Below, one piece after another: positions 1 through 18,349 of a stretch of 30,491 nt of DNA. The DNA comes from a virus. The stretch lies in the IMG/VR virus record IMGVR_UViG_3300046820_000143, positions 1 through 30,491 of that record, one strand, 5' to 3'. The notes under the pieces are model-generated. The model was given only the letters and a program-made list of their open reading frames with translations, was not told the origin of the DNA and made no database searches. How positions within the stretch are numbered: the first letter of the stretch is position 1; every line of letters begins with the position of its first letter. The translations under genes were made by a program, and so were the position numbers.

Positions 1-528
1 TAATTCGTCAAAAACAAAATTTCCATTCATATCTTGGCTGTTATCGTATGCTTCCTGACCGTCTGGCTCGCCGTAATCAAGTACACAACTAATTATAATA
101 TCGCTATATGTTGCTCCGCTGATGTGTCTTATTTCCATTTTATTTCTAATTGGGTCTGTATTCTCAGCGGCATTTTGATCTACAACTTTTGTATAAGTTT
201 GATTGTATAAACTTGTATTAATACCAACGGTGTTAGGCGTCAAATATGTAATAAGCCCTGTAGGATCTACCGTTGTGCCTCCATTTCCAAAGGCCATTTG
301 ATAAATTGTCCCGAGACCTTGATTCGACATTGCATTTACCATTGCAATACTCATGTTTTCATAATGAATGGCATTTCTTTTATCAATGAAAACCTCTTTG
401 GTTTCAGGGTCAAAAATCTTAATGTGACCCTCAAAGTGGAATCCACCAGTTTCGTTTGGTTTCTTTTCTGGCGGATTTTCAGGTTTTGAATGAATTTCTG
501 TTTGCATAGTTGTCTCGGGTTTTTTCAT
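1..528 (-). CDS. Partial phage structural protein, unknown function
   Basis: This reading frame stays open for 176 codons from an ATG at 526-528 to the window edge, so the C-terminus is missing. The N-terminal 35 or so residues are Pro/Lys/Glu-rich and probably disordered. A folded part follows, with motifs such as HIKIFDPETKEVFIDKRN, HYENMSIAMVNAM and ITYLTPNTVGINTSLYNQT. I do not recognise a named family. Its place directly after the giant wedge/fibre-type protein, on the same strand, suggests a virion or baseplate-periphery protein. The start is uncertain. A late-promoter octamer at 536-543 would put the transcript start almost on the 528 ATG, while the ATG at 505-507 would leave a leader of normal length. 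Neither has a strong Shine-Dalgarno. Function by context is inference. Confidence 0.8.
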   Translation of the reverse strand, partial: MKKPETTMQTEIHSKPENPPEKKPNETGGFHFEGHIKIFDPETKEVFIDKRNAIHYENMSIAMVNAMSNQGLGTIYQMAFGNGGTTVDPTGLITYLTPNTVGINTSLYNQTYTKVVDQNAAENTDPIRNKMEIRHISGATYSDIIISCVLDYGEPDGQEAYDNSQDMNGNFVFDEL

Positions 529-535
529 AATACTA

Positions 536-543
536 TATTTATT
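536..543 (-). promoter_or_regulatory. T4-type late promoter octamer AATAAATA
   Basis: Read on the minus strand this is AATAAATA, one mismatch from the T4 late promoter TATAAATA and identical to the octamers at 23733-23740 and 28646-28653. It overlaps the TAA stop codon of the giant gene and lies 7 bases upstream of the first ATG, or 28 upstream of the second ATG, of the partial gene at 1-528. It would be recognised by gp55-containing RNA polymerase. Confidence 0.6.
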
Positions 544-2870
544 CGGGTAATTCTGTAGCTCTATCTGCAATGAAATTAGCAATGGGCGTGTCGTTAGCTA
601 ACAAAGTAATACCTAAACTGGCGCTTTCTTGGCCTCTTTCGTACCAAATTTTGCCTCGCTTTCTAATAACTAAAATTCTTGTACCAGCAGGCACAGCTTC
701 AGTTAATCTAATATACGGTGTAATACCGTCAACTGAAAACTCAGCATCAATTGTTTCGTCTGCGGCAGGGCTGGATATCCCGTTATCTTCAACGTAGACG
801 GAAATAGGATCTTTCCTCAATCGCTTGCCTGCAACAAAAACTTCAATTTCATCACAGGGCCCGTGTGTAGTAGGAATAGTAGATTCAGCAGCGTACCATG
901 AATTTTGCCAATTCTTTCTTAGTGCAGATGTAGTATCTGCCGATGTTGGCACAAATTCTAAGGGACCGATTTCTTTTGTAGAACCGTCGCTGATAAAATC
1001 AAATTTATCTTGATTTTCTAAGTATGGTAGAGTTTCTGTGTAGCTAGAATTTATAACATAACTATTTGCCGGATGCAGTTCCAGCATAGCTGTTCCTAGA
1101 CTTCCTCTTCTTAACTGAGAAAGAACATTTCCAGTTTTCTGGAAGTATTCAATTCTTTCTTTATTAATAATAACTACACCTGGAATATTTCTTGCAGGCA
1201 ACGGAGTTGGCAAGTCGCTGGCATCTGTTACTTCAAAACTTGTATCATAGTAATTTAAATTCTTTACTAATTTTACGTTATTAGTAATTGAATATCTCTT
1301 ATAATAATAGTTGTTTAGCATGTCCTTATAAACTTCGTATGCTTTAGGAGCTTCGTATATCACATTGCCAAACTGAACAATTTTAATTTCGTCGGAAGTT
1401 GATGAAGGATCATTTAGATAAACTACTGATCGCTGGGCGGAGACAAAATAATCCCTTTCTTGTGTTAATCTATTTCCGTTTTTATATACCCATACGTAGC
1501 TAGGGTTCAATGGTTTTCTAGGCAATTGATAATTTACCTTTCCTCCGGTGAACTCATCAGTTACTATGTTCATTGTTGGGTACTCGCTGAACCATGTTAC
1601 AACAATCACATCTCCAGCAGTTAATGCTAGATCTTCATCAAATACAATATTACCATTAGATACAGAATAAGATGTTCTAACATCGGTTTCAATTCTAATA
1701 ATATCATCTACGGTAAGTTTTTCTGCAGGAATATTAATTAGATTTAAATTACCATTGTATGTATAATCAATAACAAATCTTTGTAATTCGCCGTTGATAT
1801 AAACTTTAATAGCTCCCGAAGTAATTGTGCCAATTGCCTCTTCAGGGTCAACACCTAATATAATATCGTTGTTTGAACCGTTATAGACAACATAAGTAGA
1901 ATCAATACCTCTAAGTTGTACATTATTCACCTCAACTAACATTGACGACATTATTGACGAACGTCCAAGATCGATAAAGTTATCTAAGTCAATTGTTCGT
2001 GTTGTGCCGTCAAAAACAATCGTCTGACGATTAACTCTGATAAATGGAATTCCTGTTGAATCGGTTTGTGAACTAGGGCCAAAACAAATAATTTTAACTA
2101 CTTGTCTATAAGCAGGTGATATTCCAAATTGAACCATAGTTTTGTTTTTAGTGTCAATGAATTCACTGCTGTTTACAAATCCTGTGTCAATTGATTCGCC
2201 ATCGACGGTTACTAAGACACTAGCCGTTTGATCGTACAATGCTTTAGTTAAAAATAGACTTGTTTCACCATCGGCAACAAATTCTTGATAATCTAATAAT
2301 CCAATGCCGCCGATGCCGATAGATAATATTTCAATAACAGCACCTTCAATTGGCGCTATGTTAAATTCAACGTTGTTATCGATGTAATTGATAATATATC
2401 CATCAGATCCTGTACCGTTATATTCTTGTTTTACTTTGTCAACGTAAACCATAACTGATTTAGATTCGACAATTCTTAATCCTATATCGTAGATTCTTGT
2501 AGATCCGTCACCAATAAGAATTTCAGAATGTAACGGTGCGGCACCAGGATCAGTAGCCGTAAACACTTTGATACTTAAACTATCTAAAACTTGGCCGGGA
2601 AGACTTTCCTCAGGTGCCGGAACTTGATCCGGTCCTACGAACTTTCCTCCATCTATCGAAATTTCTTCAGGAGTCAAACCTGTAGCAGTAGTATATGCAC
2701 TGCCTAATGCAGACAATGTACCTCCACTGATACTTGTATCTAACAAGTTTACGTCAGTGATTACAACCGATCCATCGCTTTCTAGTGTTCTAAAAATAAT
2801 GGTATCTTCATCATTCAGATCTGTATAGGACTGGATATTAATAGTCCTTGTTGACCCGTCACCAATAAAC
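539..2870 (-). repeat. C-terminal tandem GDGST-type beta-sandwich repeats in the giant protein
   Basis: At least six degenerate repeats begin with motifs like GDGSTRTINI (near residue 3864), GDGSTRIYDI (3980), ADGETSLFLT (4059), FDGTTRTIDL (4147), FTGGKVNYQL (4300) and SDGSTKEIGP (4487). Each is followed by a segment of the type VxVxVNGxxL...Y and a hydrophobic strand ending in IxIxxFG. This pattern is common in phage fibre and baseplate proteins as strings of small beta-sandwich domains. Residue positions are approximate. Confidence 0.6.
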
Positions 2871-5800
2871 GTTGCCATTATTGCTGTTTCTGGAGCAGAT
2901 GTTCTGCCGTTAGGCTGAACGGTTACACCGTCATACAAATCGTAGTACGGGTCATCAACTCTTACAGATTTAGATTCTCCGCTACGCTTAATGTACACAG
3001 AAATAGGCTGATTGTTTTCAGGCGTATAAGGTAAATCAAAAGTTAGCTCTTGCCAAATATTTGGAAACTCAATTGGTGGGCTATCAGTATTTGCCGCAAG
3101 TGCCTTATACAATGTTCCAAGATATTTTACAATAATACCTGCCTTGTAAGTTTTTGGAGAACTATCAGGACCTGTTAATGTATAGGTCTCGCAGTTAACT
3201 ACGTAATAGAAATCTGAATTGCTTTCGACGCTGTCCCAATTATCTGTAAACCAAGGCAGGGCATCCCAGCCGCCAGTTACATCAAATGTTGTTCCTTGAA
3301 CTTGAACACCACCGTAGTCAATACCGGTCATTAATTGATTAATCTCTTTGCCTTTCATTCCGGCTGTAGGAGAATAATACTTGTTAATTCTATTAACAGC
3401 ATCTAATAAAGAATCGTTTTTATCGTAGGTAATTGTGATAACATCGTCTTTTTTAGGAGCTACAAAAAATCTTAATTTTCCTTTTAAAATATTGTAACCG
3501 TCTGTTAAATCGTTGTATAAATTAATCTCATACTCGTTGTTTAAAATAATCTGTCCGTTTTTTACTACAGATATTTTAGACTTGTCTCTAGTAGGAGCAT
3601 AAGACAAATTAAAGATTGCACTATAACCAGATGCAACAAACGTATCAGGTTTAGTAAATGAATTATAGATACCAGTTTTGCTGATTCTATCAAACTTCAT
3701 TGTTATATCAAAAGTTCTAACAGCAGTATCGCCCATTACAGCCACAGCTTTTGCAATGTTTTGACTTGTTCCATTGCCGCCGACTAGAGTAATTGTTGGT
3801 ACAGAAGTATAACCCGATCCAGGGTTATCAACTCTAATTCCAGATACTTTTCCGCTGGAAATAAATGCCGTTGCTGCGGCACCTGTGCCGTTACCAGAAA
3901 TTAATATAGTTGGAGGAGTTTTGTAATCGCCTCCGCCGCTTGAAACATTAATTGCAGTTATAGAATAACCTTTATTATCTGCCCACCATTTCCATGGATA
4001 TTCGTCAAGTCTATTATAGTATTGACCCACAGGTAAAATTTTTCCGTCTCTGACAGAATATGCCGGAGGGCAATCAAAGTCTGTAGTTGATCCTGAATAT
4101 TTTTCATATTCAGTATATCTACTTGTGTATTCTCTAATAGTTGTTCTATAAGGTTTGACTTCTTCTATGTAGTTTCTAAAACTATCTAAGTTATCATTCT
4201 TATAATTAGGTCGTTGATTTAAATCGCCAATGTTGTGTATTGCATTTAAGAAACTGGTCTTAAATGCCCAATCAATATATGTCTGCTCAGAGAAAGCATA
4301 TCTAACTGATGAGAAGAACAACTTATTCCACTCAACCGCTAGATTGTCAATAAAGATATCTTCTTTTGCTGCTTTTAAAATTAATCTTAATTCTTTAATT
4401 GGCTGTAAATCATAGAAGGATGCGTCATAAGATCCGACGCTGTTATCAAAACCAAGTGCTGTTGTTACAAAATTATATAGGTTATCCTTAATACGAATAG
4501 TTCCGTTTTCGCGCCCTACTAAATTATAATTTTGTAATAGGTTACCTAGACCTGCTTCAGTTTTTTCTAATACTGCCCAGCCACCGTTTGAATATTCTTT
4601 GACTCTTAGTAGCGTACCAACTTCTAAATTAACGGTTGGCTCTTCGTAGAAGTTTGTAATCTCTTTAGTAATTCTAGATTTAGAATCGTAGCCAGTTGCC
4701 CACCAGTCGGTGTATTCCCAATACAAAGTTACATCATAGCCTTGAGATTTACTTCTATAGAATATTCTACGTTGTTGATCCCAAGAATATATTGCCCAGA
4801 AATTTTTATCGCTGGCGTCATTTCTAACTAGCACAGAGAACGGTCTAATTTTTACAATAGGAGTTACCGTATCAGTTTTTAGATATTTTCTTCCTCTGTT
4901 TGTTACGGTCACTGAAGAAACTCTTCCTTGAGAATCTAAAGTTATAAATGCTTTTGCTCCTGTGCCTGTGCCTTCGATAGTAATGTAAGGAGTTGTTCTA
5001 TAACCAAATCCAGTATCAATAATATCAATGGTGTCAATTTCACCATCAATTACGTTAACTGCAAATTTGGCTTGTCGAACCTTTACCGTACCAACTTGTT
5101 CTAAGTCAATGAAGTTATCAACTTCTAAATCGTATTGATTTAATAATGCATCAGGAATAGGATCTTTCTTGTTTAGATTTTCAAAACTCAGTGTGTCAAC
5201 AAACGGGCTTGTAGTTAAAACTGAATTAATATTGTCAATTACAATTTTTAATGCTTTAGCACGATTGGCAAACATAGTCTGTCTCGGTCTAAAACTCAAT
5301 CCGTAACGTTGTTTAATTGGTAAGTTGAAATCAGGGACGGTATTGCCTGCTTCATCAAAGCCTACTAAACTATCTATCCATTTCTTTTCTAAAAATTCAG
5401 CAGGAACATTATCAGCCACGCCTTCAGTTAATAATTGATATTCTCTGTGTACAGGATTAATTCCTACTTTATCAAGATTGTATTCAATGTTTACCAATGC
5501 AGTATCTGTAGAAATTATTGAAACAAAATTGTTGAATAAAAATTTATCTTTGTCAATAATAGATACAAACGGAATTCCTGTTCCTATTGGATTGGAAATG
5601 TAAGAAGAAATCGATGACACAGATACTCGTCTATCTTTATTCTTAGGGAGAATAGTTTTATTCTTAACCCAGTAATAATATAGTGTAGAAGTAGTTGCAC
5701 CTGTTGTAGGATTGTATAAAACTTTTACGTTGTATACAGAATCGTCAGCATGTTTAGGTTGCCCAGAAATGCCTTCAATTAAGCCTTCTGCCGTGTCTGC

Positions 5801-8800
5801 TAATAAACTCCATTCTGAAGGTAGTAACGGTGTTTCGACCCATTCGTATACATCCACTGAGGAACCAGTTGCTTGTTCGCCCCAATGGCCAACCCTATAA
5901 CTTAGGTCGTCTTGTTCGTAATTTAAAAACTTAACGGTGCTTAGATCCCACCAAACTTCGCCAACATGATCTTCAAACCATGCTGTAGTTTCATCTATAA
6001 TTTGATCATCAGTTCCTAGCATATAGGCTGCAGGATCATAGATAGTTTTAAATTTGATATCTTGTTCAGCTACGCTTAATACTTTTAATTTAAAAGGATC
6101 AAGTATGTCTAAATCTGCTATCTTAATGTTGTTAACATTATCGTACAATTCAACATTTTTAATAGCATCTAAATCTATTTGTTCAGTCTGCAATCTAATA
6201 GTGTTTAAACTATCTTTGTTGGCAGTTTTCTTGAATAATCTAACTTTGCCGATTTCAACATCTTCTAATTTGTATCCTGGGGATCCAACTACAATTACTG
6301 AATTTGTGCAATCAACTGCTGCGCCAAAAGATTCGTATGGTTCAAAAGCAGCATCTAATTTTTCTGCAAGGAAGTAACCTTCATCTTTACGTTCAAATAC
6401 GTAGACTTGTCCAGGGAATCCTAATCTGCCGCTGAATGTTGTTCTGCGACTATCGAACTCAGTGCCAAGTCCAAAAGTTGTTACTAAACTATAACCTGCA
6501 TTTTTAGCGCCAACTACAATGCGCTCAGTAGCAGCACTAATAGAAACACTAGAACCAAAATATTCGTTAGTGTAATTTTCGTAGCTTTGAAGTTTTTGTT
6601 TTAATCTAAATTCGTTGTTTACTTTCTTTAATACATAGACAGCACCTTGGTTTTGTCTATCGATGTCAGCTAGTGGGCTGCTAACAATTAAAGTTGTTCC
6701 CGATGAATCAATATCCAATGCTGTTCCAAACTGGTCGCCTGAATTGATTGTGGTCGACAATCCAGTATCATTAATATCTTCTAATGATTGAGAAGTAATT
6801 GTTTGTATTAAGCTATAGACATTATTAGAATTTCTTTCATAGATAAAAATTTTACCTGTAGTTGTATAAGTGCTGTCACCTACATCAACCCAAGGTTCTC
6901 CAACTGGCTCAATACCTACACTAGTATCTGCTAATAATCTATGATAGCCACCTTGCCATTTTACAACGTCATTTAATTTATATTCTTGATAGTAATTAAA
7001 TGCACCTCTGTAATTTGCAAAATATTGGCCGTCGCTGTTAGGAGCTCCTACTACTAGTATACTGCCATCCCTCGACATAATTAAGCTCTTACCAAACTTA
7101 TCACCGTCTTTAACTTGCTCGGCAAGTTGGTCTGTTGTTAATATGCCTGATGCTAATGTCGAACCGTCGTCATCTACAGCAATATTTGTAGGTAACGAGT
7201 TTTGTGTAGATACTGGATCTAATTTAATCCAAGTAGCCACTTCATCTGGTGTTGTTCCAGAAACATAATCAATGTCAATTGTAGTCTGATATAAGTATCC
7301 GTTGTACCAAACTATGCTGCCTGCTGGATAATCAAACGAGTCAGGATCTCTAGACTCTGCTAACGATCCGCCAACTAACGCATCGCCGAATACGCCAACA
7401 TATTGTGTGTTCTCTAAATGACTCCAAGCTGTTCCGTTAAACTGATATAGGTAAACGCGGCCGCGGCCCGAACTTGCACCAATAGCAGGATCACACATTG
7501 ATCCTTCTGCAGAAATAGCCATGTAATAATTTGTACCGCTTACACCAATTGTAATTGCACTACCAAATCTTTCGTCTGTTGCTTGACGTGGGCTTACGAA
7601 ATTATAAACATTATCCCATTGTCCGTCTGCGTACAAGAATAAAGATACCATACCTTGATTTACAAATCCGTCAGCACGGCCGATAGAATTTGCATCAACT
7701 ATTGTAGCTGGTTCCCAATCATCACTATTAAAATTAATAGAACTGCCGTCAGCGATTGCAATATTTGTTTTGGCCTTCCATAGTTTACCATTATATAAAA
7801 CTATTTCTCCGGCAAGATAACTACGTGGAGTTAACTCTCCCATGTAGGTGCTAGTAACTGCGCTTGCAAGTGGTGAGCCAATTGCTAGCCATTTATTATC
7901 AGGACTTACCGCTAGTACTTCTCCGTAGACTCCGGATACTGCATCTTCAAATCCGCTAGGTGCAGGAATAATTTGTTTTAAACCTAAAGTTTGATTAACT
8001 GCTGTTCTGTCGGTATAAACCATTACATAGCTTGAAGCTGGCAAACTTGTTACTACTTGTTTCAAGCTATCGATATAGGCTACAGCGGTACCTGTTCCAA
8101 GTGGCGCTGTTATTCCGTATTCAGTTAGATCGTAGGTTTGATATTGTCTAATCTTTTCAATTACTTCCCAGTTTTCGTTTTCATTAGAATCAACCCATAT
8201 CTTAGCCCCAGGAGTTAATAATGCAGTTTGTTCAAAGTCTACATCTTGATAAGTTTCAAATCTAGCTTTAGATAATATTCCAATGATTGCTGATGAGCTA
8301 TCAGTGATGTCTGGGTCGGCACTTGCAGTTGTAGTAACATTAAATGTCAATCTAGTAACTGCGGTAATTTTATAAAAGCCCGTTAAATTAGCTACCTGTA
8401 AAATACCAACAATATCTCCAACTTCAAAGTTATGAGCTCGATTTAATGTTACGGTTACATTAGTATCTTCTTTAACTGCTGCAACAACTAACAATGATAA
8501 TTCTTCGTTGTATCTTAGAACTTCCCAACTAATACCGTCAAATGTAATCCAGAAATGTGTGTTGTCTGTTAACGCAGTTATGTCAACATTTAAAATTTCG
8601 TCTCTAGAAGCAAAAATATAGTCAACATCGTTGACGTTTACATATCCAGCAGATCTAGAAACTCCGTCGTACTTGATTACAGGATTAATAGTTGTATCAA
8701 AGTTTGTAGGTTTAATTGTGAATTTTGATGCATCAATTCGTAGATTTTGATCAAGAATAACGTTGCCTTGAGATTCAACAATAATGGCAGGTTGAGGATT

Positions 8801-11800
8801 TAACACTAGAGACTTCTTGTTAATCTCAAACTCAGTTTCTCTTAGTTGATTAACTCCGCCAAGCTCGCCTACTTTAAATGCCCATTCTTCGTTTAGTACG
8901 ACACTATCATCAGTGGTTCTGCTAATCTTGTCGAAGACTTTAACAATGGCATTGTTGGTACCTTTTTCTCTAATAAAGCCTTGATATAATCTAAATTGGC
9001 TAATTTCGTCTTCTGCAAGGCCTTGTAAGTATTCTCTCGGTTGATAACCAATTGCGTGCCTTGCTAGGTCACGCTGGCTTGATCCGATTCCGTCCGAGTC
9101 AACTTCATAGTAATCTTCAAATTGATTGATTCTATAATCGTAGTTTGCAACTAGGCCCTTAGTTGGTGTTGAGTCTAACTTTGTCCAACCTGCATCGTTG
9201 AAATTTTCAACTCCTAGTTGATTAGTTTTACTAGTCCAATAATACGATTTATAAGATACAATGTCTCCTAATCTATAATCAGTGAACGGTTGCCAAACTT
9301 GAATGTTTACATTATCAAATACAAATCCTGGGCTGGTATAATCTCCATCCCAGTCAACGGTTCTAAAACCTCTAGACTTAATTCTTTCTTGGCGATAACC
9401 AGTTGGCTTATCGTAGATCACATCGTTAAACACGGTTCTATCATCAAATACTACAACATGCTCCTTAAGAACAAAGTTTGCTCTCATAAAATATATTCCA
9501 GCTGTTGTATTAACCGTTGACATCGACAATGATCTAAAATCTCTCTTTACATTAATAAAGGTAGGCTGTAAAGGAGTCCCGTCGTCTCTTAAAATTTGAT
9601 AATCGTAGAAACTATCTAAGAAGTTGTCTGCAACTCCTAGAGGAACACTCATGTTAATATTTTCTGCGCTTGGGCTTAAGGTCAATAATGAACCTTCGCT
9701 CCAATTGTGTTTACTCCAGAACATGAATTCTTTCACTGATGTAAACCAATCGTAGGCTGTTTGTGTAGTTGCATCGTAGCCGTCAAATACAAATCCGGCG
9801 CTGATCAAATATTCTTGATAGCCTAATAAAAAGTCAACTACTTCTTGTATTGTAGTCATTAGTGACCCGTAGGTCATTTTACTTAATTTTAACTTGTTAT
9901 AGTTTCTTCTTCTAAGTGCTGTAACAGCATTTTTAATCGGTAGAGATGGCAATTGCTTCCATAACGCTAATTCAAATGAATCGGTGCTGGTATGACTCTT
10001 TAAACTTCTGTAATATGTAGAACCGTATAATACTACTACACCGTTACCATAGAATTTTTCAGGAGCCCAGGATAAGAAGTTTTCACTGATGCCCCCTACA
10101 GAAATAACAGGATCTGTTTGTGTAGGAATTGGTTGATAATAATTAAAGAACGGATCTTTGCTATCATATCCAGAAATTTTCCAGCCGTTGGCGGTCTTTT
10201 CTATGATAACACCACTATAGGCTGCGCTGTAAATTGGAGAGCTAACATTAAAAATAATGTCATAATTCTCCGAAGGAACAAAAATACTGCTAGTTGTCGA
10301 ACTAGGATTCTTGCTGTCTAATACATATTTTTGCTGACCTTGATCAACAAATCCCGAAAGTCTATTAGTTAAGTTAACATCGATTCCTGTGATTTTATCT
10401 GTTAAAATTTGAATCGGCGATGTCTTACTCTTTAGATAATTTGTAACATAAGTTACTAATCCAGAAATGATTTTAGTAGATGTGTTCTCATATAATAAAT
10501 CATCTATGGTAAAAAACGAATTAGATGTTTTATTAATTGTCTGGCCAAGGATGTTTAAACCTGTTTCCGATTTATTAAAATTATCTGTAATAAATTCAAA
10601 AGGCTTTAATAAGCATAGTGCTTCAATAACAGCAAAAGGCCATTCGCTGCTAGATCTCCAAGCAGCTTCAACTGGGCCTTGATCGCCTAAAACAAAGGCT
10701 CCTTTGTTATTAATTAAAGTAAAGTTATTTGCTAATCCGGAATCTAACGGACTTAACAAATTACCGTCGCCGTCTGTAGGAATATGCGACATAATGCTAG
10801 GACGCTTGTATCTGTCTTTGATTCCAGCACGGCTACCCTGACGAATAATGCCGTCACGTAGGTCTTCCCAAAGAATTAAATTGTTTCTTGTGTAAGGAGC
10901 AGGACCATATTCTGCTTCCCACCAATCTGGCTGTTCGCTAAAGCCTAACATTTCCCAAGGACAAGTATGAGGCCTATCAGTATCGTAGAACCATTTATAT
11001 ACTCCTCTCCAGTATCCTGGCAAGTTCTTTGAACTTGTAGGATCTGTCATGTTTGAATATGTATATGTAAAACTATCTTCGCTGTCGAAGAAAATATTGT
11101 TTACATAATCAATGTTAGTGTCAGCGATCCACTTTAAGAATTCTGGTACTACAATAGTATCTAAAGAAGTTTTACCAAATAAAGAATTTCCGTAATAACC
11201 CCCTAGTACGGCATCATTGTTAAACAACGACTCGTCGTATTGTTGTTTAATATTGTTGTAAATTCTAAATTCTAATTCTAATAAAACATCGTCTCTAAAG
11301 TCTCCGTAGGCAACGGTAATACTGCCGTCGTGTCCTTGGATGACTTCTTTAGGTTCTAAATATGTGTCGTCTAAGAATTTTCTAGGAGTATATTTTTTGT
11401 ACAAACCTAACTTAGTCGGAGTGGGCGGAATAAAATTAGTAGAAGTAGAAACATACTCTCTAATAATAATAACATCGCCTTCTATTAGGTCAATTTTTAA
11501 ATTAACAAAACCAAATGTAGAGTTAAACTCATAATCTCGGCCGGCCAGCAATTGCTGATTATTCTTGTAAATGTAAACTGCTCTAGAACTTAATGTTTCA
11601 AGGTCAAATTTTTCAGACAACGCAAATGTCTTAATTCCTTCGTCTTCAACTTCGTAGGTAAACGTAGTATAAGCACCAGAACCGATCATGTCTGATTCTG
11701 AAAACGGTTTTCCTGTATTTTGTGTTTTGCTAATTTCTTCTAAGACAACGTCAACAAAATCTAAAGGATTTTGATCATAGTATAATGTATATGCTAGATC

Positions 11801-14461
11801 AATAAATGTATTCTTAAAATCAGTGTATGCTTTTTTAGAGTATTGTAGAGATTTAATAATGTTAACTTCTTTATCGCACAGCAACACCATTGCTAATGGT
11901 GCAATATTAGAATGTTTTAAAAATCTCTTTGACTTGTTTTGATAACCTGATACATCTCGTAGATTACTAATTCCAGGATATCTTCCTGAAAATTCATCGA
12001 TCATCTCAATACCAGTTAATACATGATCAGCTGCTTGCCCTAATGTAAATGTTTTAATTTTTTCATTTAGAGGATTTTTTTCTAACCCTAGCGGAATCTC
12101 ATAATATCCTGTAACAGGATCAACGTCTGCAAAAATTTTAAATGTTACTACATCGTCAACACTAAAAGAATTTACAAAAGTAAACACACCCTTGCTTCTA
12201 GTAAAAGTATCGGTTGATTTAATACCGTTAACATAAACTAGGATTTTTCTAATTGTAGATTCTAAAGTATTTTCCCAATCAATAGCTGTAGTAGTTACTA
12301 TATTAGTAACTTCTGTAATTGGGACAGAATCAATAATAGGTTGAGAAAAGTCTTTATCTGATACTAACCAGCCGTTGCTGTATTCCTCTGGTGCATTTTT
12401 CTTAAAGAAACCTGTATATAAATTTTTTGTATATGTTGTCTGTGCGACTTTATAAGAGAAACTTTCAAATTCAAGATCAAACTCAAATTGAATGTCGCCC
12501 ACATTATCAATATTCAAATAGGATAAACTAAATCCTAATTCATTGTCAATTGTTGCTGTGCCTGCTTTATATCCTAAAATTCGAGTTCCTGCAAAAGAAC
12601 TTACAGGGTAGGTATCGGCATCAGCAAAACTAACTTGATTGCTGTCATACATATCAAATAAGGGCGGCTGGTTGACTGCGGTTTTTAACTGACTCTGTGT
12701 CCAACTTGTTCCGTTAAAATGGAACATTAATCCTTTATTAACATGACCTCTACGAACTAATACGCCTTCGCCTAATATGGAATCACCGTCGGCTGCTTTT
12801 TGTAAATTAATTTGAGTAGAGTTATTATGTTTAATAAACTTAACAACATAAATTTGATTGTTAGCTAAACTATCTGTATCAGCAGTTATTAAAACTCTGG
12901 CGCCGTCAAACAATGATTCGCCATCAACAATATAACCCTGACTTCCTTCGATTGTAGAAAACACGTCAGTGGTGAATGTATCAACGTAATCCACAACTTG
13001 TTTTGCAACACTACCGTGATTAAACAATTGTAAGTTAGAATTAAATTCAATAATTGGTCTTTTAGCCCTTGCTGTTTCACTGGCGTCAAAACTTGTTCCG
13101 TTAAAATTGCTAGAATATTCTAAAACACTTCTGTGGAACCAACGATTGTATCGGCTCCAAGGATTTGAGTCTACACTTGATTTTGAAATCGTAATGTAGT
13201 CCTTTAAAGCAGGATAAGCACTAGCATCATCAAACGGTTGACTATCAAATCCGCCGTTATCAAATAAAATTTCTAAACTGCCGGCTGTAAGATTTTCAGA
13301 TACAATTAAATCTGTATATTTTGTCAGTGTGATTTTATTGCCAACACCTTCAACTAACCATTTGTCTCCGTCAACTGAATACTTTGCAGGAGTTACTAGC
13401 CCTGTAAAATAAATTAACATGCCGTTAGATAACTCAACTCCGTTACTGCTGGTATAAGTTGTCTTGCCGACGATTTCTTTTTCTACATCTATCTTTGTAT
13501 TTGTATCAACATTGGCAATTAAAAATCTGCCAAATCTATTAACATCTGTGGTGCTTTGATAAAACAAAACATCGGGAGCATCAAGAGGAACTTCAAAGGT
13601 TAATGTTCCGTTAGTAATTCCGTTGTTAGTAACACCCTTGTTATAATCTAATGCCGATGTTGATAAAACGTCATCAACATATTCCCAGTCTTGAGAATCT
13701 ATGTCAATAGTACTGCCATCATACGGCGGAATATTAATCTTTGCTTTCCACAACTTACCATCAAATACGGTAAGCTGTCCTGCGCTGTAGGCTAGATACG
13801 GATTATATAGTAGTGTACCTGTATCAATAGCAGTTTTAATTGTGACTCCGTTGTCAGGAGCATTAACTAAAAACTTGTAGGTTTGACCTCTATATAATGT
13901 TAGAGTTGGGTTGTTTGTTAATCCGTCTGGTGTAAGAATAAAAACGCTGCCTGTTCCCAGAGCAATTTTATATGTGCTGGTAATTTTTTGAGATTGCCCT
14001 GCAATTTTTACAGCGGCTGGGCCTTCTGGAACCCAATAGTATTCTCTATAGTTTACAAACTTATCCCAATCAATCGGGGGATTCCAGCTATAATGCTCTT
14101 GGTCAGTTACAATAGCGTCTAACTCTTCGTTGTTGCCGAAGAATTTAATTTGATTTTTGAAATCTAAATAATCATAAAAATTATTAATAGTGCCGTTTTT
14201 CTTAACGGTTACTCCAGGCTCTAGCTGATAGCGGCTGCGTAGAGTTTCATCTGTGTCTAGATAAACATCAGATGTTTTATAAGTTTTACCGTAACGTCTG
14301 CCAACGTATCCTACCGTTTTTTGTAAAATACCAGGTTGCACTAATGGATCTAGTACTGCCGACAAAAATTTATCGTTACTTTCCGTTTGAAAAACTTGAG
14401 GTAATAACTCTACGGTTCTTCTAATTGGTAATTGACTTTCTGGGTAAAATTGTTTTGCCAT
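539..14461 (-). CDS. Giant modular baseplate/tail-fibre-type structural protein (4640 residues, gp7 position)
   Basis: This protein sits directly after gp6, where T4 has the wedge protein gp7 (about 1030 residues), but it is more than four times longer. gp6 stops one base before its ATG and there is no clear Shine-Dalgarno, so translation is probably coupled. The N-terminus (from MAKQFYPESQLPIRRTVELL) and the first 1450 or so residues have no module I recognise apart from a carbohydrate-binding-like one near 220-262. Later parts are modular. More CBM5/12-like modules (pattern GxxVxYxGxxYxA...W) lie near 1465-1506, 1722-1765, 2205-2252, 2371-2415, 2487-2528 and 3769-3805. FG-GAP-like blades lie at about 2170-2745. 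GxGY...PPT glycine-rich repeats lie near 3132-3197 and 3499-3575. GDGSTxx beta-sandwich repeats run from about 3860 to the end. It is a virion protein that likely joins wedge architecture to host-surface binding. The gp7 equivalence is inferred from position only. Confidence 0.85.
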   Translation of the reverse strand: MAKQFYPESQLPIRRTVELLPQVFQTESNDKFLSAVLDPLVQPGILQKTVGYVGRRYGKTYKTSDVYLDTDETLRSRYQLEPGVTVKKNGTINNFYDYLDFKNQIKFFGNNEELDAIVTDQEHYSWNPPIDWDKFVNYREYYWVPEGPAAVKIAGQSQKITSTYKIALGTGSVFILTPDGLTNNPTLTLYRGQTYKFLVNAPDNGVTIKTAIDTGTLLYNPYLAYSAGQLTVFDGKLWKAKINIPPYDGSTIDIDSQDWEYVDDVLSTSALDYNKGVTNNGITNGTLTFEVPLDAPDVLFYQSTTDVNRFGRFLIANVDTNTKIDVEKEIVGKTTYTSSNGVELSNGMLIYFTGLVTPAKYSVDGDKWLVEGVGNKITLTKYTDLIVSENLTAGSLEILFDNGGFDSQPFDDASAYPALKDYITISKSSVDSNPWSRYNRWFHRSVLEYSSNFNGTSFDASETARAKRPIIEFNSNLQLFNHGSVAKQVVDYVDTFTTDVFSTIEGSQGYIVDGESLFDGARVLITADTDSLANNQIYVVKFIKHNNSTQINLQKAADGDSILGEGVLVRRGHVNKGLMFHFNGTSWTQSQLKTAVNQPPLFDMYDSNQVSFADADTYPVSSFAGTRILGYKAGTATIDNELGFSLSYLNIDNVGDIQFEFDLEFESFSYKVAQTTYTKNLYTGFFKKNAPEEYSNGWLVSDKDFSQPIIDSVPITEVTNIVTTTAIDWENTLESTIRKILVYVNGIKSTDTFTRSKGVFTFVNSFSVDDVVTFKIFADVDPVTGYYEIPLGLEKNPLNEKIKTFTLGQAADHVLTGIEMIDEFSGRYPGISNLRDVSGYQNKSKRFLKHSNIAPLAMVLLCDKEVNIIKSLQYSKKAYTDFKNTFIDLAYTLYYDQNPLDFVDVVLEEISKTQNTGKPFSESDMIGSGAYTTFTYEVEDEGIKTFALSEKFDLETLSSRAVYIYKNNQQLLAGRDYEFNSTFGFVNLKIDLIEGDVIIIREYVSTSTNFIPPTPTKLGLYKKYTPRKFLDDTYLEPKEVIQGHDGSITVAYGDFRDDVLLELEFRIYNNIKQQYDESLFNNDAVLGGYYGNSLFGKTSLDTIVVPEFLKWIADTNIDYVNNIFFDSEDSFTYTYSNMTDPTSSKNLPGYWRGVYKWFYDTDRPHTCPWEMLGFSEQPDWWEAEYGPAPYTRNNLILWEDLRDGIIRQGSRAGIKDRYKRPSIMSHIPTDGDGNLLSPLDSGLANNFTLINNKGAFVLGDQGPVEAAWRSSSEWPFAVIEALCLLKPFEFITDNFNKSETGLNILGQTINKTSNSFFTIDDLLYENTSTKIISGLVTYVTNYLKSKTSPIQILTDKITGIDVNLTNRLSGFVDQGQQKYVLDSKNPSSTTSSIFVPSENYDIIFNVSSPIYSAAYSGVIIEKTANGWKISGYDSKDPFFNYYQPIPTQTDPVISVGGISENFLSWAPEKFYGNGVVVLYGSTYYRSLKSHTSTDSFELALWKQLPSLPIKNAVTALRRRNYNKLKLSKMTYGSLMTTIQEVVDFLLGYQEYLISAGFVFDGYDATTQTAYDWFTSVKEFMFWSKHNWSEGSLLTLSPSAENINMSVPLGVADNFLDSFYDYQILRDDGTPLQPTFINVKRDFRSLSMSTVNTTAGIYFMRANFVLKEHVVVFDDRTVFNDVIYDKPTGYRQERIKSRGFRTVDWDGDYTSPGFVFDNVNIQVWQPFTDYRLGDIVSYKSYYWTSKTNQLGVENFNDAGWTKLDSTPTKGLVANYDYRINQFEDYYEVDSDGIGSSQRDLARHAIGYQPREYLQGLAEDEISQFRLYQGFIREKGTNNAIVKVFDKISRTTDDSVVLNEEWAFKVGELGGVNQLRETEFEINKKSLVLNPQPAIIVESQGNVILDQNLRIDASKFTIKPTNFDTTINPVIKYDGVSRSAGYVNVNDVDYIFASRDEILNVDITALTDNTHFWITFDGISWEVLRYNEELSLLVVAAVKEDTNVTVTLNRAHNFEVGDIVGILQVANLTGFYKITAVTRLTFNVTTTASADPDITDSSSAIIGILSKARFETYQDVDFEQTALLTPGAKIWVDSNENENWEVIEKIRQYQTYDLTEYGITAPLGTGTAVAYIDSLKQVVTSLPASSYVMVYTDRTAVNQTLGLKQIIPAPSGFEDAVSGVYGEVLAVSPDNKWLAIGSPLASAVTSTYMGELTPRSYLAGEIVLYNGKLWKAKTNIAIADGSSINFNSDDWEPATIVDANSIGRADGFVNQGMVSLFLYADGQWDNVYNFVSPRQATDERFGSAITIGVSGTNYYMAISAEGSMCDPAIGASSGRGRVYLYQFNGTAWSHLENTQYVGVFGDALVGGSLAESRDPDSFDYPAGSIVWYNGYLYQTTIDIDYVSGTTPDEVATWIKLDPVSTQNSLPTNIAVDDDGSTLASGILTTDQLAEQVKDGDKFGKSLIMSRDGSILVVGAPNSDGQYFANYRGAFNYYQEYKLNDVVKWQGGYHRLLADTSVGIEPVGEPWVDVGDSTYTTTGKIFIYERNSNNVYSLIQTITSQSLEDINDTGLSTTINSGDQFGTALDIDSSGTTLIVSSPLADIDRQNQGAVYVLKKVNNEFRLKQKLQSYENYTNEYFGSSVSISAATERIVVGAKNAGYSLVTTFGLGTEFDSRRTTFSGRLGFPGQVYVFERKDEGYFLAEKLDAAFEPYESFGAAVDCTNSVIVVGSPGYKLEDVEIGKVRLFKKTANKDSLNTIRLQTEQIDLDAIKNVELYDNVNNIKIADLDILDPFKLKVLSVAEQDIKFKTIYDPAAYMLGTDDQIIDETTAWFEDHVGEVWWDLSTVKFLNYEQDDLSYRVGHWGEQATGSSVDVYEWVETPLLPSEWSLLADTAEGLIEGISGQPKHADDSVYNVKVLYNPTTGATTSTLYYYWVKNKTILPKNKDRRVSVSSISSYISNPIGTGIPFVSIIDKDKFLFNNFVSIISTDTALVNIEYNLDKVGINPVHREYQLLTEGVADNVPAEFLEKKWIDSLVGFDEAGNTVPDFNLPIKQRYGLSFRPRQTMFANRAKALKIVIDNINSVLTTSPFVDTLSFENLNKKDPIPDALLNQYDLEVDNFIDLEQVGTVKVRQAKFAVNVIDGEIDTIDIIDTGFGYRTTPYITIEGTGTGAKAFITLDSQGRVSSVTVTNRGRKYLKTDTVTPIVKIRPFSVLVRNDASDKNFWAIYSWDQQRRIFYRSKSQGYDVTLYWEYTDWWATGYDSKSRITKEITNFYEEPTVNLEVGTLLRVKEYSNGGWAVLEKTEAGLGNLLQNYNLVGRENGTIRIKDNLYNFVTTALGFDNSVGSYDASFYDLQPIKELRLILKAAKEDIFIDNLAVEWNKLFFSSVRYAFSEQTYIDWAFKTSFLNAIHNIGDLNQRPNYKNDNLDSFRNYIEEVKPYRTTIREYTSRYTEYEKYSGSTTDFDCPPAYSVRDGKILPVGQYYNRLDEYPWKWWADNKGYSITAINVSSGGGDYKTPPTILISGNGTGAAATAFISSGKVSGIRVDNPGSGYTSVPTITLVGGNGTSQNIAKAVAVMGDTAVRTFDITMKFDRISKTGIYNSFTKPDTFVASGYSAIFNLSYAPTRDKSKISVVKNGQIILNNEYEINLYNDLTDGYNILKGKLRFFVAPKKDDVITITYDKNDSLLDAVNRINKYYSPTAGMKGKEINQLMTGIDYGGVQVQGTTFDVTGGWDALPWFTDNWDSVESNSDFYYVVNCETYTLTGPDSSPKTYKAGIIVKYLGTLYKALAANTDSPPIEFPNIWQELTFDLPYTPENNQPISVYIKRSGESKSVRVDDPYYDLYDGVTVQPNGRTSAPETAIMATFIGDGSTRTINIQSYTDLNDEDTIIFRTLESDGSVVITDVNLLDTSISGGTLSALGSAYTTATGLTPEEISIDGGKFVGPDQVPAPEESLPGQVLDSLSIKVFTATDPGAAPLHSEILIGDGSTRIYDIGLRIVESKSVMVYVDKVKQEYNGTGSDGYIINYIDNNVEFNIAPIEGAVIEILSIGIGGIGLLDYQEFVADGETSLFLTKALYDQTASVLVTVDGESIDTGFVNSSEFIDTKNKTMVQFGISPAYRQVVKIICFGPSSQTDSTGIPFIRVNRQTIVFDGTTRTIDLDNFIDLGRSSIMSSMLVEVNNVQLRGIDSTYVVYNGSNNDIILGVDPEEAIGTITSGAIKVYINGELQRFVIDYTYNGNLNLINIPAEKLTVDDIIRIETDVRTSYSVSNGNIVFDEDLALTAGDVIVVTWFSEYPTMNIVTDEFTGGKVNYQLPRKPLNPSYVWVYKNGNRLTQERDYFVSAQRSVVYLNDPSSTSDEIKIVQFGNVIYEAPKAYEVYKDMLNNYYYKRYSITNNVKLVKNLNYYDTSFEVTDASDLPTPLPARNIPGVVIINKERIEYFQKTGNVLSQLRRGSLGTAMLELHPANSYVINSSYTETLPYLENQDKFDFISDGSTKEIGPLEFVPTSADTTSALRKNWQNSWYAAESTIPTTHGPCDEIEVFVAGKRLRKDPISVYVEDNGISSPAADETIDAEFSVDGITPYIRLTEAVPAGTRILVIRKRGKIWYERGQESASLGITLLANDTPIANFIADRATELPE
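3735..3965 (-). repeat. Glycine-rich GGGDYKTPPT / GSGYTSVPT repeat pair in the giant protein
   Basis: Two adjacent copies follow the pattern GxGY-xxxPTIxxxGGNGT followed by an Ala-rich strand, at about residues 3499-3575. The arrangement suggests a small beta-helix or beta-prism element. The motif is widespread in phage virion proteins, and its precise role is unknown. Confidence 0.6.
4870..5066 (-). repeat. Second glycine-rich GFGYRTTPYIT repeat pair in the giant protein
   Basis: This is the same repeat class as at 3735-3965: GFGYRTTPYITIEGTGTGAK followed by GRVSSVTVTNRGRKY, at about residues 3132-3197. The two sites are separated by roughly 300 residues of unrelated sequence. Confidence 0.55.
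6227..7954 (-). repeat. Putative FG-GAP-like beta-propeller region with inserted binding modules
   Basis: Blade-like motifs recur at about residues 2174 (GEVLAVSPDNKWLAIGSP), 2294 (ERFGSAITIG), 2450 (DKFGKSLIMSRDGSILVVGA), 2572 (DQFGTALDIDSSGTTLIVSS), 2630 (EYFGSSVSISAATERIVVGA) and 2705 (ESFGAAVDCTNSVIVVGSP). The pattern is FG-x-S/A-(hydrophobic)...hydrophobic-VGAP/SP, as in integrin-type FG-GAP repeats. CBM5/12-like modules at about 2205, 2371 and 2487 lie between blades. The propeller fold is inferred from motif spacing. Confidence 0.6.
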
Positions 14462-14462
14462 A

Positions 14463-17400
14463 TTAATTTGTACTTGTAACTATAGTGCTTTCTAATGCTC
14501 TAATTTCAGATGCAGAAATTGCCGATACAATTTCAATATCATCAACCCTTGCGCCGCTAACAAAAATCTCATCTATCCTACTTTGAATTTCAAACAAACT
14601 TCCAAAGCTCTGAGACGCTTGTCTTGGAAGAATAATCATGTTAGAAATATCGGGTGCTGTAGTATTGATTACATAAGTGATCAATTCGCTTACATAAAAT
14701 CTATCTCCGAAGTCCCAATTATTAACATCAAAGAAATCGTTTATAGCACTAATGATTCTAACTTTTAAATCGTTATCATTAATTAGCTTATTAGGATTCT
14801 TAACAACTTTAAACTTTGCCTGTAATTTTACATCTGCTGTTGAGCCGAATAAAACTTTATAAGTCACAGGATGATAAATGATTTCGTCGCTAATAGTTTT
14901 GATAAGATTAAGTTTAGAGCCAAAGCTGATTCTTAAACTATCGCTGTTAGGAGCATCTGGTTCTGTAAGTACTGCTCCAGATAGATAATTCCTGTAGCTA
15001 GTATCATAGCTTCTTGTTAAAATATAAATGTCAATGATGTTGCTAGCACTAGGATCGATTCTACGATCAACGCTGGCATTATGAACATACTGAAATTTAA
15101 TATCAGCACGTCCAATGTTTGCAACATACGAGCTTTCGAGAACTAGAGTATTTGTTGTTTTATCAACTCGTTTTACCCTGTCTTCTGCGCTGTCATAAAA
15201 ATAAATTAAATCCCCGTCATTGTAATCATTGACGTTAATTAAACTTTCTTTTTGTACAATTGCAATATGATTATCAGTGTTATCGATATAATTTCTAACT
15301 TTATTTCCCAAATTGTCTGTAGTATCTTGGAAAAACAAAAATTTAAAATTGTTATTGTCAGAAACAATGTCGTCAAATGCTTCCGGATTGTCTATAACTC
15401 CGTCATCGTCGGAATCAGCAAAAGCAATTTTAATTTTATCTGCACTTTGATATCCGTCGTCGTATCTAATAGTATCACTGATTTCAAAAGCAATATCACG
15501 CTTTAATGGGTATAAAAATGTTTTGTCAGAATTTATAGATAAAACATTGATTTTATCTTTTACAACTTTTCCTGTTTTGCTGTCATATGCTTTTGCTTTA
15601 GAATCAAAATAAAATCTATTCTGTGCAATACTACCAAAGACATAATCTAACCCTCTAATTCTAACAACGTATTCGTCTGCTTCCTTGACAAATGCAATCA
15701 GCCAAGATGCATCTAAACTGCTGTTAGAAACGTCGCCGGCTTTACCTAAACTAAAATTAGAAAGTAAGTTTAAATTCCCTGCTGTTATTAGTTTCCACTC
15801 GCCGTCTATAGGACTATATCTTAATCCAAAATTTAAATTACTAAACATCTGATTAGTCATTTCTGTTTCTAATGCTAGTGCTAGATTTGTAGTAAATTTA
15901 GGAACAATTCTCGAAGCAATAGCTCCTGTTGGAACAATATCATTGAATTGAATCGGGCCTGCTCCGGAAGATAATACTCCTCGGCCTGCATTAGTTCCGT
16001 CTCCGGTAACTTTAACAACCTTTAACCAAATTTTATCCGTTTGTTCTGGATCGGTTGCATCAGTTGTAACTAGTTTTCCTCTTCTAAAACTTTTGCCGGA
16101 AGGAGCAATAAATTTAACCAGTGCACCGGGAGCAACATATTTCAATGTGCTAGTAGTGTAGGTTCCAACTTTTAAAATAAGATTAGTATCAACGGCATTT
16201 TTAAAATAACCAGTTGACAAATTTACATCTGTTGTTAGTTGATTCCATAATGTATTTGTATCTGTAAAATTAATCTTATCAAATTTTGTAAAATAGAAAT
16301 TAAACACATCTGTGTCATTAACCACTGGCTCTATTGAGTTTCTAATAAAATTTAAAATTTCAATTCTATTTGTATACTTGAAAGATAAAGAACGTTCAAT
16401 TTCTTCTTTGTAGACAAACCCGTCATTAGAGAAAACATTCACAGAGCTGTATTTTCCAGTAGCATCTATAATTTCAAAATTCCTACTGATGCCGCTAGAT
16501 GTTCTATTAATGGCATTAATTTTTAGTATATCTTGAGAAGTAGATAACGGAGCAAGATTGTAATCTTCTCCTGTGACCATTCTATTCTGCGTATAGTATT
16601 GTGCCGGAGCATTTGCTCTAATAGAATCTATCGATTCGCTGGCGGACGAAGAACTAACGGTATACTTTAAACCAAGTGTGATTGTTAGAGTATGTCTAAT
16701 TCCTTGCCTGTTAACATAAGGAACAGAGATAGTAATACCTCTCATTTCCGAAGGAGCAATTTGATATAATAGTCCGTTGCTTCTTCTATAAAATACTCGG
16801 AAAGCACCTTGCGGTAAATTTCCATAAACTCCATCAGCAAAGGCTAGGTCAACTCGATCGTTGGCTTTTGTTATAACAGAGTAAATGTTTCTAATATCGG
16901 AAGTAACGCTGTTATAAGCAATGTTACTACCTACTAAAGAAGAAACTTTTGTCCATTCGTTTTGTTGGACTCCGGCTGCACTTAATCCAAACAACCATAC
17001 ATCATCATTGTTGATGTTATCGCTGTCTACTGAAATAATTTCATTTGTTGACGGAATACTAATTGAGAAGTCAGCAAGTTCTAAACTTCCCTGTTTAAAC
17101 ATCAAGAAAAATCCTGTGTTGGAACTTGTGCCGCCACGTCCATCATTTCTGTAAACAAAGCCTAGTTGATTTCCAGGAACTGGAGGCTCTTCATAAATTT
17201 CTTCTTTACCTTTGAAACTAGTACTTACTAGCTCAAAAGTCATTTGTCTACCAGATACTACTTTACCAAAAGTGAAAATAGGCACATCAGTAGAAGATGT
17301 TTTAAATCTATATTGCTCGGTTTGAATGCCTTCAATAGTATCTGAACCTTGGCTTCTTCCAAACTCAGTGTTATCTGTCATTGCTGCGTTTAGAACTGCA

Positions 17401-17870
17401 ACAAATTGCTCTGACCAGTTTTGATTGGTTGGGTCGTTCCAAATAATTGTTTGTTGTGCTAGATTTTTTCCGTTGCTGTCAAGCACAGATTCTGTTGTAC
17501 TAACGGTGTCAAACTTTAAAAGGCCTTTAGCTGAGATGTTTCTTTTAGCATTATAGCTTAACATCTTTGCTAATCTTAGCACTGACTCTTTACGTTCTGC
17601 AAGTTCAATAAAATTTTCACGGCTAGCTAGATCAATACGAAATGCTAAACTTTGACCTAAAAATGCAATAGCGTCTATTAAGGCGAGGTATTCACTGCTT
17701 TCAATGTAATCGTTGAAATCTTCAGGATAATTTTCCCTAAAATATGAAATAATTACTCGACGAAGATTTTCAAAATCGTAAGATTTAAAATCAGCATTTT
17801 TAAATGTCTGATAAATCCTTGTCCAATCCTCATTGAGTATTAGGTTGTTTAATCTTGAAGTTGTTGTCAT
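14463..17870 (-). CDS. 6: Baseplate wedge protein gp6
   Basis: gp6 is the core wedge subunit of the T4 baseplate, dimerising to form the inner ring that rearranges on contraction. The N-terminal 120 residues carry the typical start of marine T4-like gp6 proteins: DWTRIYQTFKNADFKSYDF, then YFRENYPEDFNDYIESSEYL, then a helical stretch around LASRENFIELAERKESVLRL. The protein is 1135 residues against 660 in T4, so the middle is greatly expanded. Residues 819-830 read DSDDDGVIDNPE, a textbook DxDxDGxxDxxE calcium-binding loop. The C-terminal part resembles phage J-like wedge domains. The start at 17870 has AGGA about 10 bases upstream. The gene lies between gp25 and the giant protein. Confidence 0.85.
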   Translation of the reverse strand: MTTTSRLNNLILNEDWTRIYQTFKNADFKSYDFENLRRVIISYFRENYPEDFNDYIESSEYLALIDAIAFLGQSLAFRIDLASRENFIELAERKESVLRLAKMLSYNAKRNISAKGLLKFDTVSTTESVLDSNGKNLAQQTIIWNDPTNQNWSEQFVAVLNAAMTDNTEFGRSQGSDTIEGIQTEQYRFKTSSTDVPIFTFGKVVSGRQMTFELVSTSFKGKEEIYEEPPVPGNQLGFVYRNDGRGGTSSNTGFFLMFKQGSLELADFSISIPSTNEIISVDSDNINNDDVWLFGLSAAGVQQNEWTKVSSLVGSNIAYNSVTSDIRNIYSVITKANDRVDLAFADGVYGNLPQGAFRVFYRRSNGLLYQIAPSEMRGITISVPYVNRQGIRHTLTITLGLKYTVSSSSASESIDSIRANAPAQYYTQNRMVTGEDYNLAPLSTSQDILKINAINRTSSGISRNFEIIDATGKYSSVNVFSNDGFVYKEEIERSLSFKYTNRIEILNFIRNSIEPVVNDTDVFNFYFTKFDKINFTDTNTLWNQLTTDVNLSTGYFKNAVDTNLILKVGTYTTSTLKYVAPGALVKFIAPSGKSFRRGKLVTTDATDPEQTDKIWLKVVKVTGDGTNAGRGVLSSGAGPIQFNDIVPTGAIASRIVPKFTTNLALALETEMTNQMFSNLNFGLRYSPIDGEWKLITAGNLNLLSNFSLGKAGDVSNSSLDASWLIAFVKEADEYVVRIRGLDYVFGSIAQNRFYFDSKAKAYDSKTGKVVKDKINVLSINSDKTFLYPLKRDIAFEISDTIRYDDGYQSADKIKIAFADSDDDGVIDNPEAFDDIVSDNNNFKFLFFQDTTDNLGNKVRNYIDNTDNHIAIVQKESLINVNDYNDGDLIYFYDSAEDRVKRVDKTTNTLVLESSYVANIGRADIKFQYVHNASVDRRIDPSASNIIDIYILTRSYDTSYRNYLSGAVLTEPDAPNSDSLRISFGSKLNLIKTISDEIIYHPVTYKVLFGSTADVKLQAKFKVVKNPNKLINDNDLKVRIISAINDFFDVNNWDFGDRFYVSELITYVINTTAPDISNMIILPRQASQSFGSLFEIQSRIDEIFVSGARVDDIEIVSAISASEIRALESTIVTSTN

Positions 17871-17914: not shown

Positions 17915-18349
17915 TCAGTTAATAATGTTATTTTCTTTGTCGAAGTTAAAAGTCATACGTTCGTTGATATTAAAAGGCAAATATGTTATGTCGGCTTCTA
18001 TTCTTATGCCCATATCAGTGCTATCGATAACTACTCCATTAATTGCAATCCTTGGATCATAGTTAATAATTTGTTCAACGTCTTCTGTGATTAATTTTTT
18101 TACTTCTTCTGTAAAAGGTTCAAAAAGTATGTCCCAAATAATTGTACCAAAGTCGGGATTTTCAAGTTTTTCACCTTTACGGATATAAAAATGATTAACA
18201 ATATCTTGCTTTACTAAATCAATGTCGTAGAGTTTGTAATTGTTTTTAACTTCTTTAGAACTGAAACCTTTGTAGGTAAAAGCTGCTTGGCTATCTGAAA
18301 CCGTAGCTGTTAAAGATGCAACAGATTTTTGATTATATAATTTTGCCAT
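17915..18349 (-). CDS. 25: Baseplate wedge / sheath initiator gp25
   Basis: gp25 (GPW_gp25 family) sits at the top of the baseplate wedge. It nucleates sheath polymerisation by offering a handshake partner for the first sheath ring. At 144 residues it is close to T4 gp25 (132). Diagnostic segments are HFYIRKGEKLENPDFGTIIW followed by DILFEPFTEEVKKLITEDVE, then the strand INGVVIDSTDMGIRIEADIT. The ATG at 18349 has AAGGA about 8 bases upstream; this overlaps the TAA stop of the gp5 gene (TAAGGA), implying coupled translation. The gene sits between gp5 and gp6 on the same strand, as in other T4-like phages. Confidence 0.93.
   Translation of the reverse strand: MAKLYNQKSVASLTATVSDSQAAFTYKGFSSKEVKNNYKLYDIDLVKQDIVNHFYIRKGEKLENPDFGTIIWDILFEPFTEEVKKLITEDVEQIINYDPRIAINGVVIDSTDMGIRIEADITYLPFNINERMTFNFDKENNIIN

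Follow-up and report, generated by a model that had tools for sequence, protein, structure and literature searches.

A 4640-residue protein in the gp7 slot of a T4-type jumbo phage baseplate: a probable enlarged wedge scaffold bearing docking modules

The stretch of DNA analysed here (the window) is a virus record of 30,491 bases, and what is said below of the giant protein's own genome covers this stretch. Genes for baseplate homologues run along its minus strand in the order gp25–gp6–giant, with a single base separating the end of the gp6 gene from the start of the giant gene:

539-14461, minus strand: giant virion protein (phrog_10938 family) in the gp7 slot, ATG start, 4640 amino acids, 518.7 kDa
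14463-17870, minus strand: gp6 homologue, 1135 amino acids (phrog_10646, E 1.2e-291)
17915-18349, minus strand: gp25 homologue
18361-19917, minus strand: gp5-like central spike/hub protein, in which Pfam found no lysozyme domain
22264-22563, minus strand: gp53-like wedge protein (phrog_7145)
1-582, minus strand: phrog_11259 gene, downstream of the giant and cut at the window end

The homologues of gp55, gp47 and gp46 are encoded divergently from the giant/gp6 strand, and for the PA5oct homologue of the phrog_11259 gene the listing gives detection in virions by mass spectrometry (MS). The initial annotation had described an uninterrupted 13.9 kb frame directly after gp6, at the place of T4 gp7, without giving a strand; the frame is confirmed at 4640 codons on the minus strand and the slot is borne out. 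By chance, 4640 random codons of the giant's composition would contain about 325 stops; the giant frame contains none. The same single, intact frame (approximately 4.0–4.7 thousand amino acids) is present in more than 30 independent viral contigs from other samples and is therefore not an assembly artefact. These contig relatives are 43-79% identical to the giant over residues 761-1960, and the longest open frame among them has 5021 codons (G006). In three relatives (L090, L092 and L137) the giant is instead found as two overlapping frames (4050 and 572 codons in L092), reflecting either sequencing frameshifts or a real split of the gene.

The giant matches the phrog_10938 profile with 1107 bits, significantly over the conserved blocks described below. 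Searching with its N-terminal 1333 residues (tblastn) produced matches in 87 phage records, with 24-34% identity among the matches listed, and the phages concerned are large T4-superfamily jumbo phages, including K64-1, GAP32 and SCTP-2 beside RaK2, 121Q, CBB and PA5oct. Members of phrog_10938 include RaK2 ORF070 (3326 amino acids), CBB gp236, 121Q gp582, PA5oct gp355 (3857 amino acids), Atu_ph07 gp180 (4449 amino acids), phAPEC6 gp245 and a Phosso protein (4555 amino acids); the RsoM2USA form is shorter, at 2541 residues (PMC8504454). The position directly after gp6 is also seen in PA5oct, Atu_ph07, CBB, RaK2, 121Q and Phosso. In Salicola phage SCTP-2 (L192 10624-19914), the gene preceding the giant encodes not gp6 but a 3096 amino acid beta-propeller repeat protein.

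In the database records, family members are annotated either as 'virion structural protein' or as 'hypothetical'. The phAPEC6 protein gp245 (381.9 kDa) is present in virions, where it was identified by MS with 17 unique peptides, and adjoins gp244, a 131-kDa wedge protein (PMC7247149); the record for PA5oct gp355 carries an ESI-MS/MS note (virion detection). By analogy with these two relatives, the window protein is likely to be a virion component. No gp7 assignment for a phrog_10938 protein was found in the relatives' records consulted or in the open-licence literature searched. The family of giant virion proteins to which the window protein belongs, as one of its large members, had been catalogued before, and both size and slot are on record; what is new here is the plausible assignment of a gp7-type function to that family.

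Four blocks of the giant (residues 1-140, 405-1300, 1520-1860 and 2773-3480) are kept in all relatives and, together with the slot after gp6 and the virion protein status, constitute what it shares with the other phrog_10938 proteins. It differs from the RaK2-like giants in being up to 40% longer and in possessing an FG-GAP block with CBM-like modules set into it and, towards the C-terminus, four beta-sandwiches. From the N-terminus to the C-terminus, its parts are:

14042-14461, minus strand: N-terminal block, residues 1-140, present in all relatives
13676-13810, minus strand: CBM5/12-like module, residues 218-262
10562-13249, minus strand: conserved block, residues 405-1300, of which 1041-1300 are the best conserved
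12125-12283, minus strand: beta-sandwich (gp10-XD/fibre-anchor-like), residues 727-779
11453-11638, minus strand: beta-sandwich (gp10-XD/fibre-anchor-like), residues 942-1003
9950-10069, minus strand: CBM5/12-like module, residues 1465-1504 (profile match to the chitinase A1 chitin-binding domain, E 0.002)
9362-9904, minus strand: conserved block preceding the core, residues 1520-1700
9176-9298, minus strand: CBM5/12-like module, residues 1722-1762
8882-9172, minus strand: probable gp7-type core, residues 1764-1860, motif YQGFIREKGT (hhalign and reciprocal HMM; AF2 helices)
6242-7981, minus strand: six FG-GAP repeats, residues 2161-2740, with three CBM-like inserts
7709-7831, minus strand: CBM5/12-like module within the FG-GAP block, residues 2211-2251
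7220-7333, minus strand: CBM5/12-like module within the FG-GAP block, residues 2377-2414
6881-7003, minus strand: CBM5/12-like module within the FG-GAP block, residues 2487-2527
4022-6145, minus strand: second conserved block, residues 2773-3480, motifs DWAFKTSF and EVKPYRTTIREY, in all relatives
4862-5074, minus strand: glycine-rich (GSGY) module 1, residues 3130-3200
3770-3964, minus strand: glycine-rich (GSGY) module 2, residues 3500-3564
3422-3592, minus strand: beta-sandwich (gp10-XD/fibre-anchor-like), residues 3624-3680
3044-3160, minus strand: CBM5/12-like module, residues 3768-3806
1364-2515, minus strand: four C-terminal beta-sandwiches, residues 3983-4366, of which 4188-4303 align with T4 gp10 279-398
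1037-1306, minus strand: module common to the giant and a cyanophage giant, residues 4386-4475

The repeated modules noted previously are indeed present and can be counted as seven CBM5/12-like, six FG-GAP, two glycine-rich (GSGY) and seven beta-sandwich modules; the E-values behind these counts are not independent for the window, as the seeds were taken from it, and the relatives L086 and L116 match too. Pfam places CBM_5_12 and FG-GAP_2 above cut-off. The FG-GAP block is probably a beta-propeller and is lineage-specific, with little or none of it aligning in RaK2, CBB, 121Q or PA5oct. A PDB sequence search with the whole giant returned nothing, no significant PDB fold match was found for most of residues 405-1300, and in PDB profile searches only the chitin-binding modules stand out, with weak E-values. 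When 800-column windows were compared by hhalign with all T4 wedge and neck proteins, only the modules common with the cyanophage giants emerged. Matches to phrog_438 and 'head closure Hc2', considered as signs of gp8 or a neck protein, were rejected: they fall on a glycine-rich module of a kind common in phage proteins.

Gene order in other T4-type phages speaks for the gp7 slot, being gp6–gp7–gp8 in T4, wedge subunit–gp6–gp7 in Aeromonas phage P19 and gp25–gp6–3032 amino acid protein–separate gp8 in the cyanophage S-CAM1. Two PHROG 'baseplate wedge' families, one of 765 and one of 4179 positions, are matched by T4 gp7 through its residues 646-759 and by the S-CAM1 protein as well, and HMM searches link the T4 gp7 core and the cyanophage proteins in both directions (E 4e-5 to 3e-4). 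The cyanophage core in turn provides the route to the giant. Among 115 giant windows compared with this core by hhalign, residues 1807-1855 scored best at 28.1, the next unrelated window reaching 18.7 and the reversed-profile maximum being 22.0. Run against all the cyanophage and T4-group ORFs searched, an HMM built from giant residues 1764-1860 places its top matches on the core in six cyanophage proteins, and in the reverse search the best match to the cyanophage core HMM is a family giant at the corresponding place. The match covers only around 50 aligned columns, with single HMM E-values of 0.1-0.4. Folded alone by AF2, the core segment is helical with a pLDDT below 50; a low-confidence helical core of this sort would be consistent with a bundle of helices that gp6 completes.

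A direct connection to T4 gp7 is harder to see. The hhalign score of the giant core against T4 gp7 (16.4) is under the reversed background (21.1), none of the Pfam gp7 domain models matched by T4 gp7 is reported for the giant, and the gp7 family profile phrog_964 has no match in the giant or in any relative. HMM searching found no counterpart of T4 gp7 residues 848-915 in the jumbo phage proteins, and both T4 gp7 and gp8 are absent among the Foldseek matches listed for giant residues 761-1960 and 2760-3940. A separate gp7 gene was likewise not found in the records of 17 relatives, by a search that a very diverged gp7 would escape. Two weak hhalign matches, between residues 2081-2154 and T4 gp7 517-593 (27.9, background 21.7) and between residues 3881-3987 and gp9 (24.7, background 19.1), were left out of the argument. 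Residues 1-140 had been suggested as the gp7 core by a motif seen by eye; HMM searching gave no support for this.

The best reading of the giant is that it probably contains a gp7-type core at about residues 1764-1860, the homology being drawn through the cyanophage proteins. The earlier wedge interpretation gains from the slot, from this probable core and from the lack of any other gp7 in the 17 relatives' records, but not from any significant direct match to gp7. We consider it likely that the giant is the gp7-equivalent of the wedge. The best-surviving alternative, itself unlikely, is that the slot is occupied by a different peripheral baseplate protein, gp7 having been lost or persisting as a small unrecognised gene elsewhere. 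Such a protein would account for the non-significant direct match to gp7 and for a well-folded part most of which has no PDB counterpart; it would leave unexplained why the core and the cyanophage gp7-slot protein match each other in both search directions, why the slot is retained across very diverged phages and why no other gp7 candidate was found.

Large proteins in the gp7 slot are also known from the cyanophages, namely the 3032 amino acid S-CAM1 protein, phrog_2885 ('baseplate wedge subunit', 4179 positions) and phrog_701 (6136 positions). These resemble the giant in lying after gp6, in carrying glycine-rich and other inserts and, probably, in the gp7-type core, and their expansion is likewise located behind the core, between it and the second gp7 segment. 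They differ in that their core is N-terminal (residues 140-245), the second T4 gp7 segment (848-915) is recognisable and a separate gp8 gene can be recognised. T4 gp7 itself (1032 amino acids, 119 kDa) shares with the giant the slot and the proposed core with its KG motif, but is 4.5 times smaller, and the giant shows no recognisable equivalent of the fn3, helical, V and VI domains of T4 gp7.

The beta-sandwich modules have a different set of relatives. Foldseek matches them to a gp10-sized chain of a T4-like baseplate cup (9f4b_FA), to the N-terminal part of CBA120 TSP4 (TSP4-N) and to tail/fibre-adaptor domains of podophages, with figures for the gp10-XD-type likeness of probability up to 1.00 and E 5e-4 to 0.2. 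By hhalign, giant residues 4206-4303 score 33.4 against T4 gp10 292-398 (XD3), with a reversed maximum of 20.5, and in the relative L086 the Pfam model Phage_T7_tail, representing a T7-type fibre N-terminal domain, gives E 1e-4, just under cut-off. Each module-to-gp10 match, taken alone, is below usual significance. Judged from the Foldseek matches and a weak profile similarity, the beta-sandwich type is what the giant would share with T4 gp10, the CBA120 TSP4 XD domains and T7-type fibre N-termini; those belong to trimeric fibres, whereas in the giant about seven copies are found within a protein of the wedge slot. The initial annotation had expected segments of the giant to resemble wedge proteins, and this holds for some modules, which are gp10 XD-like, but not for gp8, gp9 or gp7, whose profiles gave no significant direct match to giant segments (gp8 hhalign scores being at background). 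In T4 gp10, XD2 and XD3 bind gp12 and gp11 (PMC8825819), which makes docking a likely role for the giant's beta-sandwiches: by analogy, these would most likely dock separately encoded collar and fibre proteins.

That the fibre proteins are separately encoded is indicated by several relatives. G004 has a giant with 70% identity to that of the window; behind it come the phrog_11259 gene and a row of four paralogues, each encoding 584-696 amino acids (L278 4966-12804); one of the four was scanned and has a Tail Collar domain (E 4.5e-18) with weak Gp10_C similarity. Four relatives' records, searched in full, have the T4 gp10 N-terminal anchor in frames of their own, 184-2685 codons long, one of these frames clearing the Pfam cut-off for T4_gp9_10_N, and PA5oct has a separate gp10-like collar gene. 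In RaK2, where the giant is ORF070, the long fibres are made of nine separate proteins (gp526-gp534) placed by immunogold microscopy (PMC10253068). Searches with PHROG and Pfam found no Collar, other fibre-tip or gp9/10 N-terminal anchor domain in the giant. The existence of these separate collar, gp9/10-type and fibre genes in relatives implies that the giant does not include the fibres, and the earlier proposal of their fusion into it is not supported.

The fuller form of that claim, in which gp7, gp8, gp10, gp11 and fibre functions are fused in one chain to give one fibre set per wedge, is for the same reason already largely refuted as regards the fibres, and we regard it as very unlikely overall. 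It draws on the size of the giant, on its gp10-XD-like beta-sandwiches and CBM and FG-GAP modules, and on the failure to find a separate gp8 in the jumbo relatives, where phrog_977 gives a weak partial match in Atu_ph07 only, the phrog_438 matches lie on the glycine-rich module and a diverged gp8 would escape; the collar-type gene series directly downstream and the RaK2 fibre cluster weigh against it. Of the separate gp7 and gp10 genes that the initial annotation had named as counting against it, no gp7 was found in the 17 relatives' records, and gp9/10-anchor proteins exist in several relatives. Less likely still is that the giant is an adhesin-like side protein whose main function is to bind host or environmental polysaccharide through its seven CBM5/12-like modules and FG-GAP block, given that RaK2, CBB, 121Q and PA5oct keep the giant with FG-GAP undetected and CBM modules few or absent, and that these modules may serve folding or contact.

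In all probability the giant serves as a wedge scaffold that has been enlarged and fitted with modules for docking. In the architecture that we propose, one copy would join two copies of gp6 in each of the six wedges via the helical core at about 1764-1860; the 2:1 stoichiometry with gp6 and the six copies per virion are inferred. A wedge built as a 2:1 heterotrimer is known from other contractile tails, an example being (gp31)2-gp32 in A-1(L) (PMC10966104). Around the core, the chain would have grown approximately 4.5-fold, by the conserved blocks of the jumbo family and by inserted surface modules, these being the FG-GAP block with its CBM-like inserts, the glycine-rich modules and the gp10-XD/fibre-anchor-like beta-sandwiches. 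It is conceivable, if rather doubtful, that the wedge periphery has been reorganised further, an enlarged gp7 with several gp10-XD-like docking modules having taken over the linking function of gp8, gp10 and gp11, while the neighbouring four collar-type paralogues sit on different modules of that one chain.

If the wedge scaffold reading is correct, the giant of the RaK2-like, PA5oct-like and Atu_ph07-like jumbo phages would acquire a functional name, that of a gp7-type wedge core, and T4-type baseplates could be suggested to enlarge by insertion of modules around one wedge subunit, as those of cyanophages appear to do.

Several further features of the window deserve mention. A frame without a PHROG match occupies 28676-30490; it has at least 605 codons and is still open where the window ends. 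Positions 22567-23715 encode a 382 amino acid protein with an Ala/Gly/Ser-rich first half and a C-terminal half that matches phrog_12050. Following the gp46 homologue and a small gene is a SegE-type GIY-YIG homing endonuclease (27686-28120; Pfam SegE_GIY-YIG, 4.8e-33), whose best PHROG is labelled 'NAD synthetase', a label that looks wrong. Finally, the gp6 homologue (14463-17870) is itself enlarged, at 1135 amino acids compared with 660 in T4.
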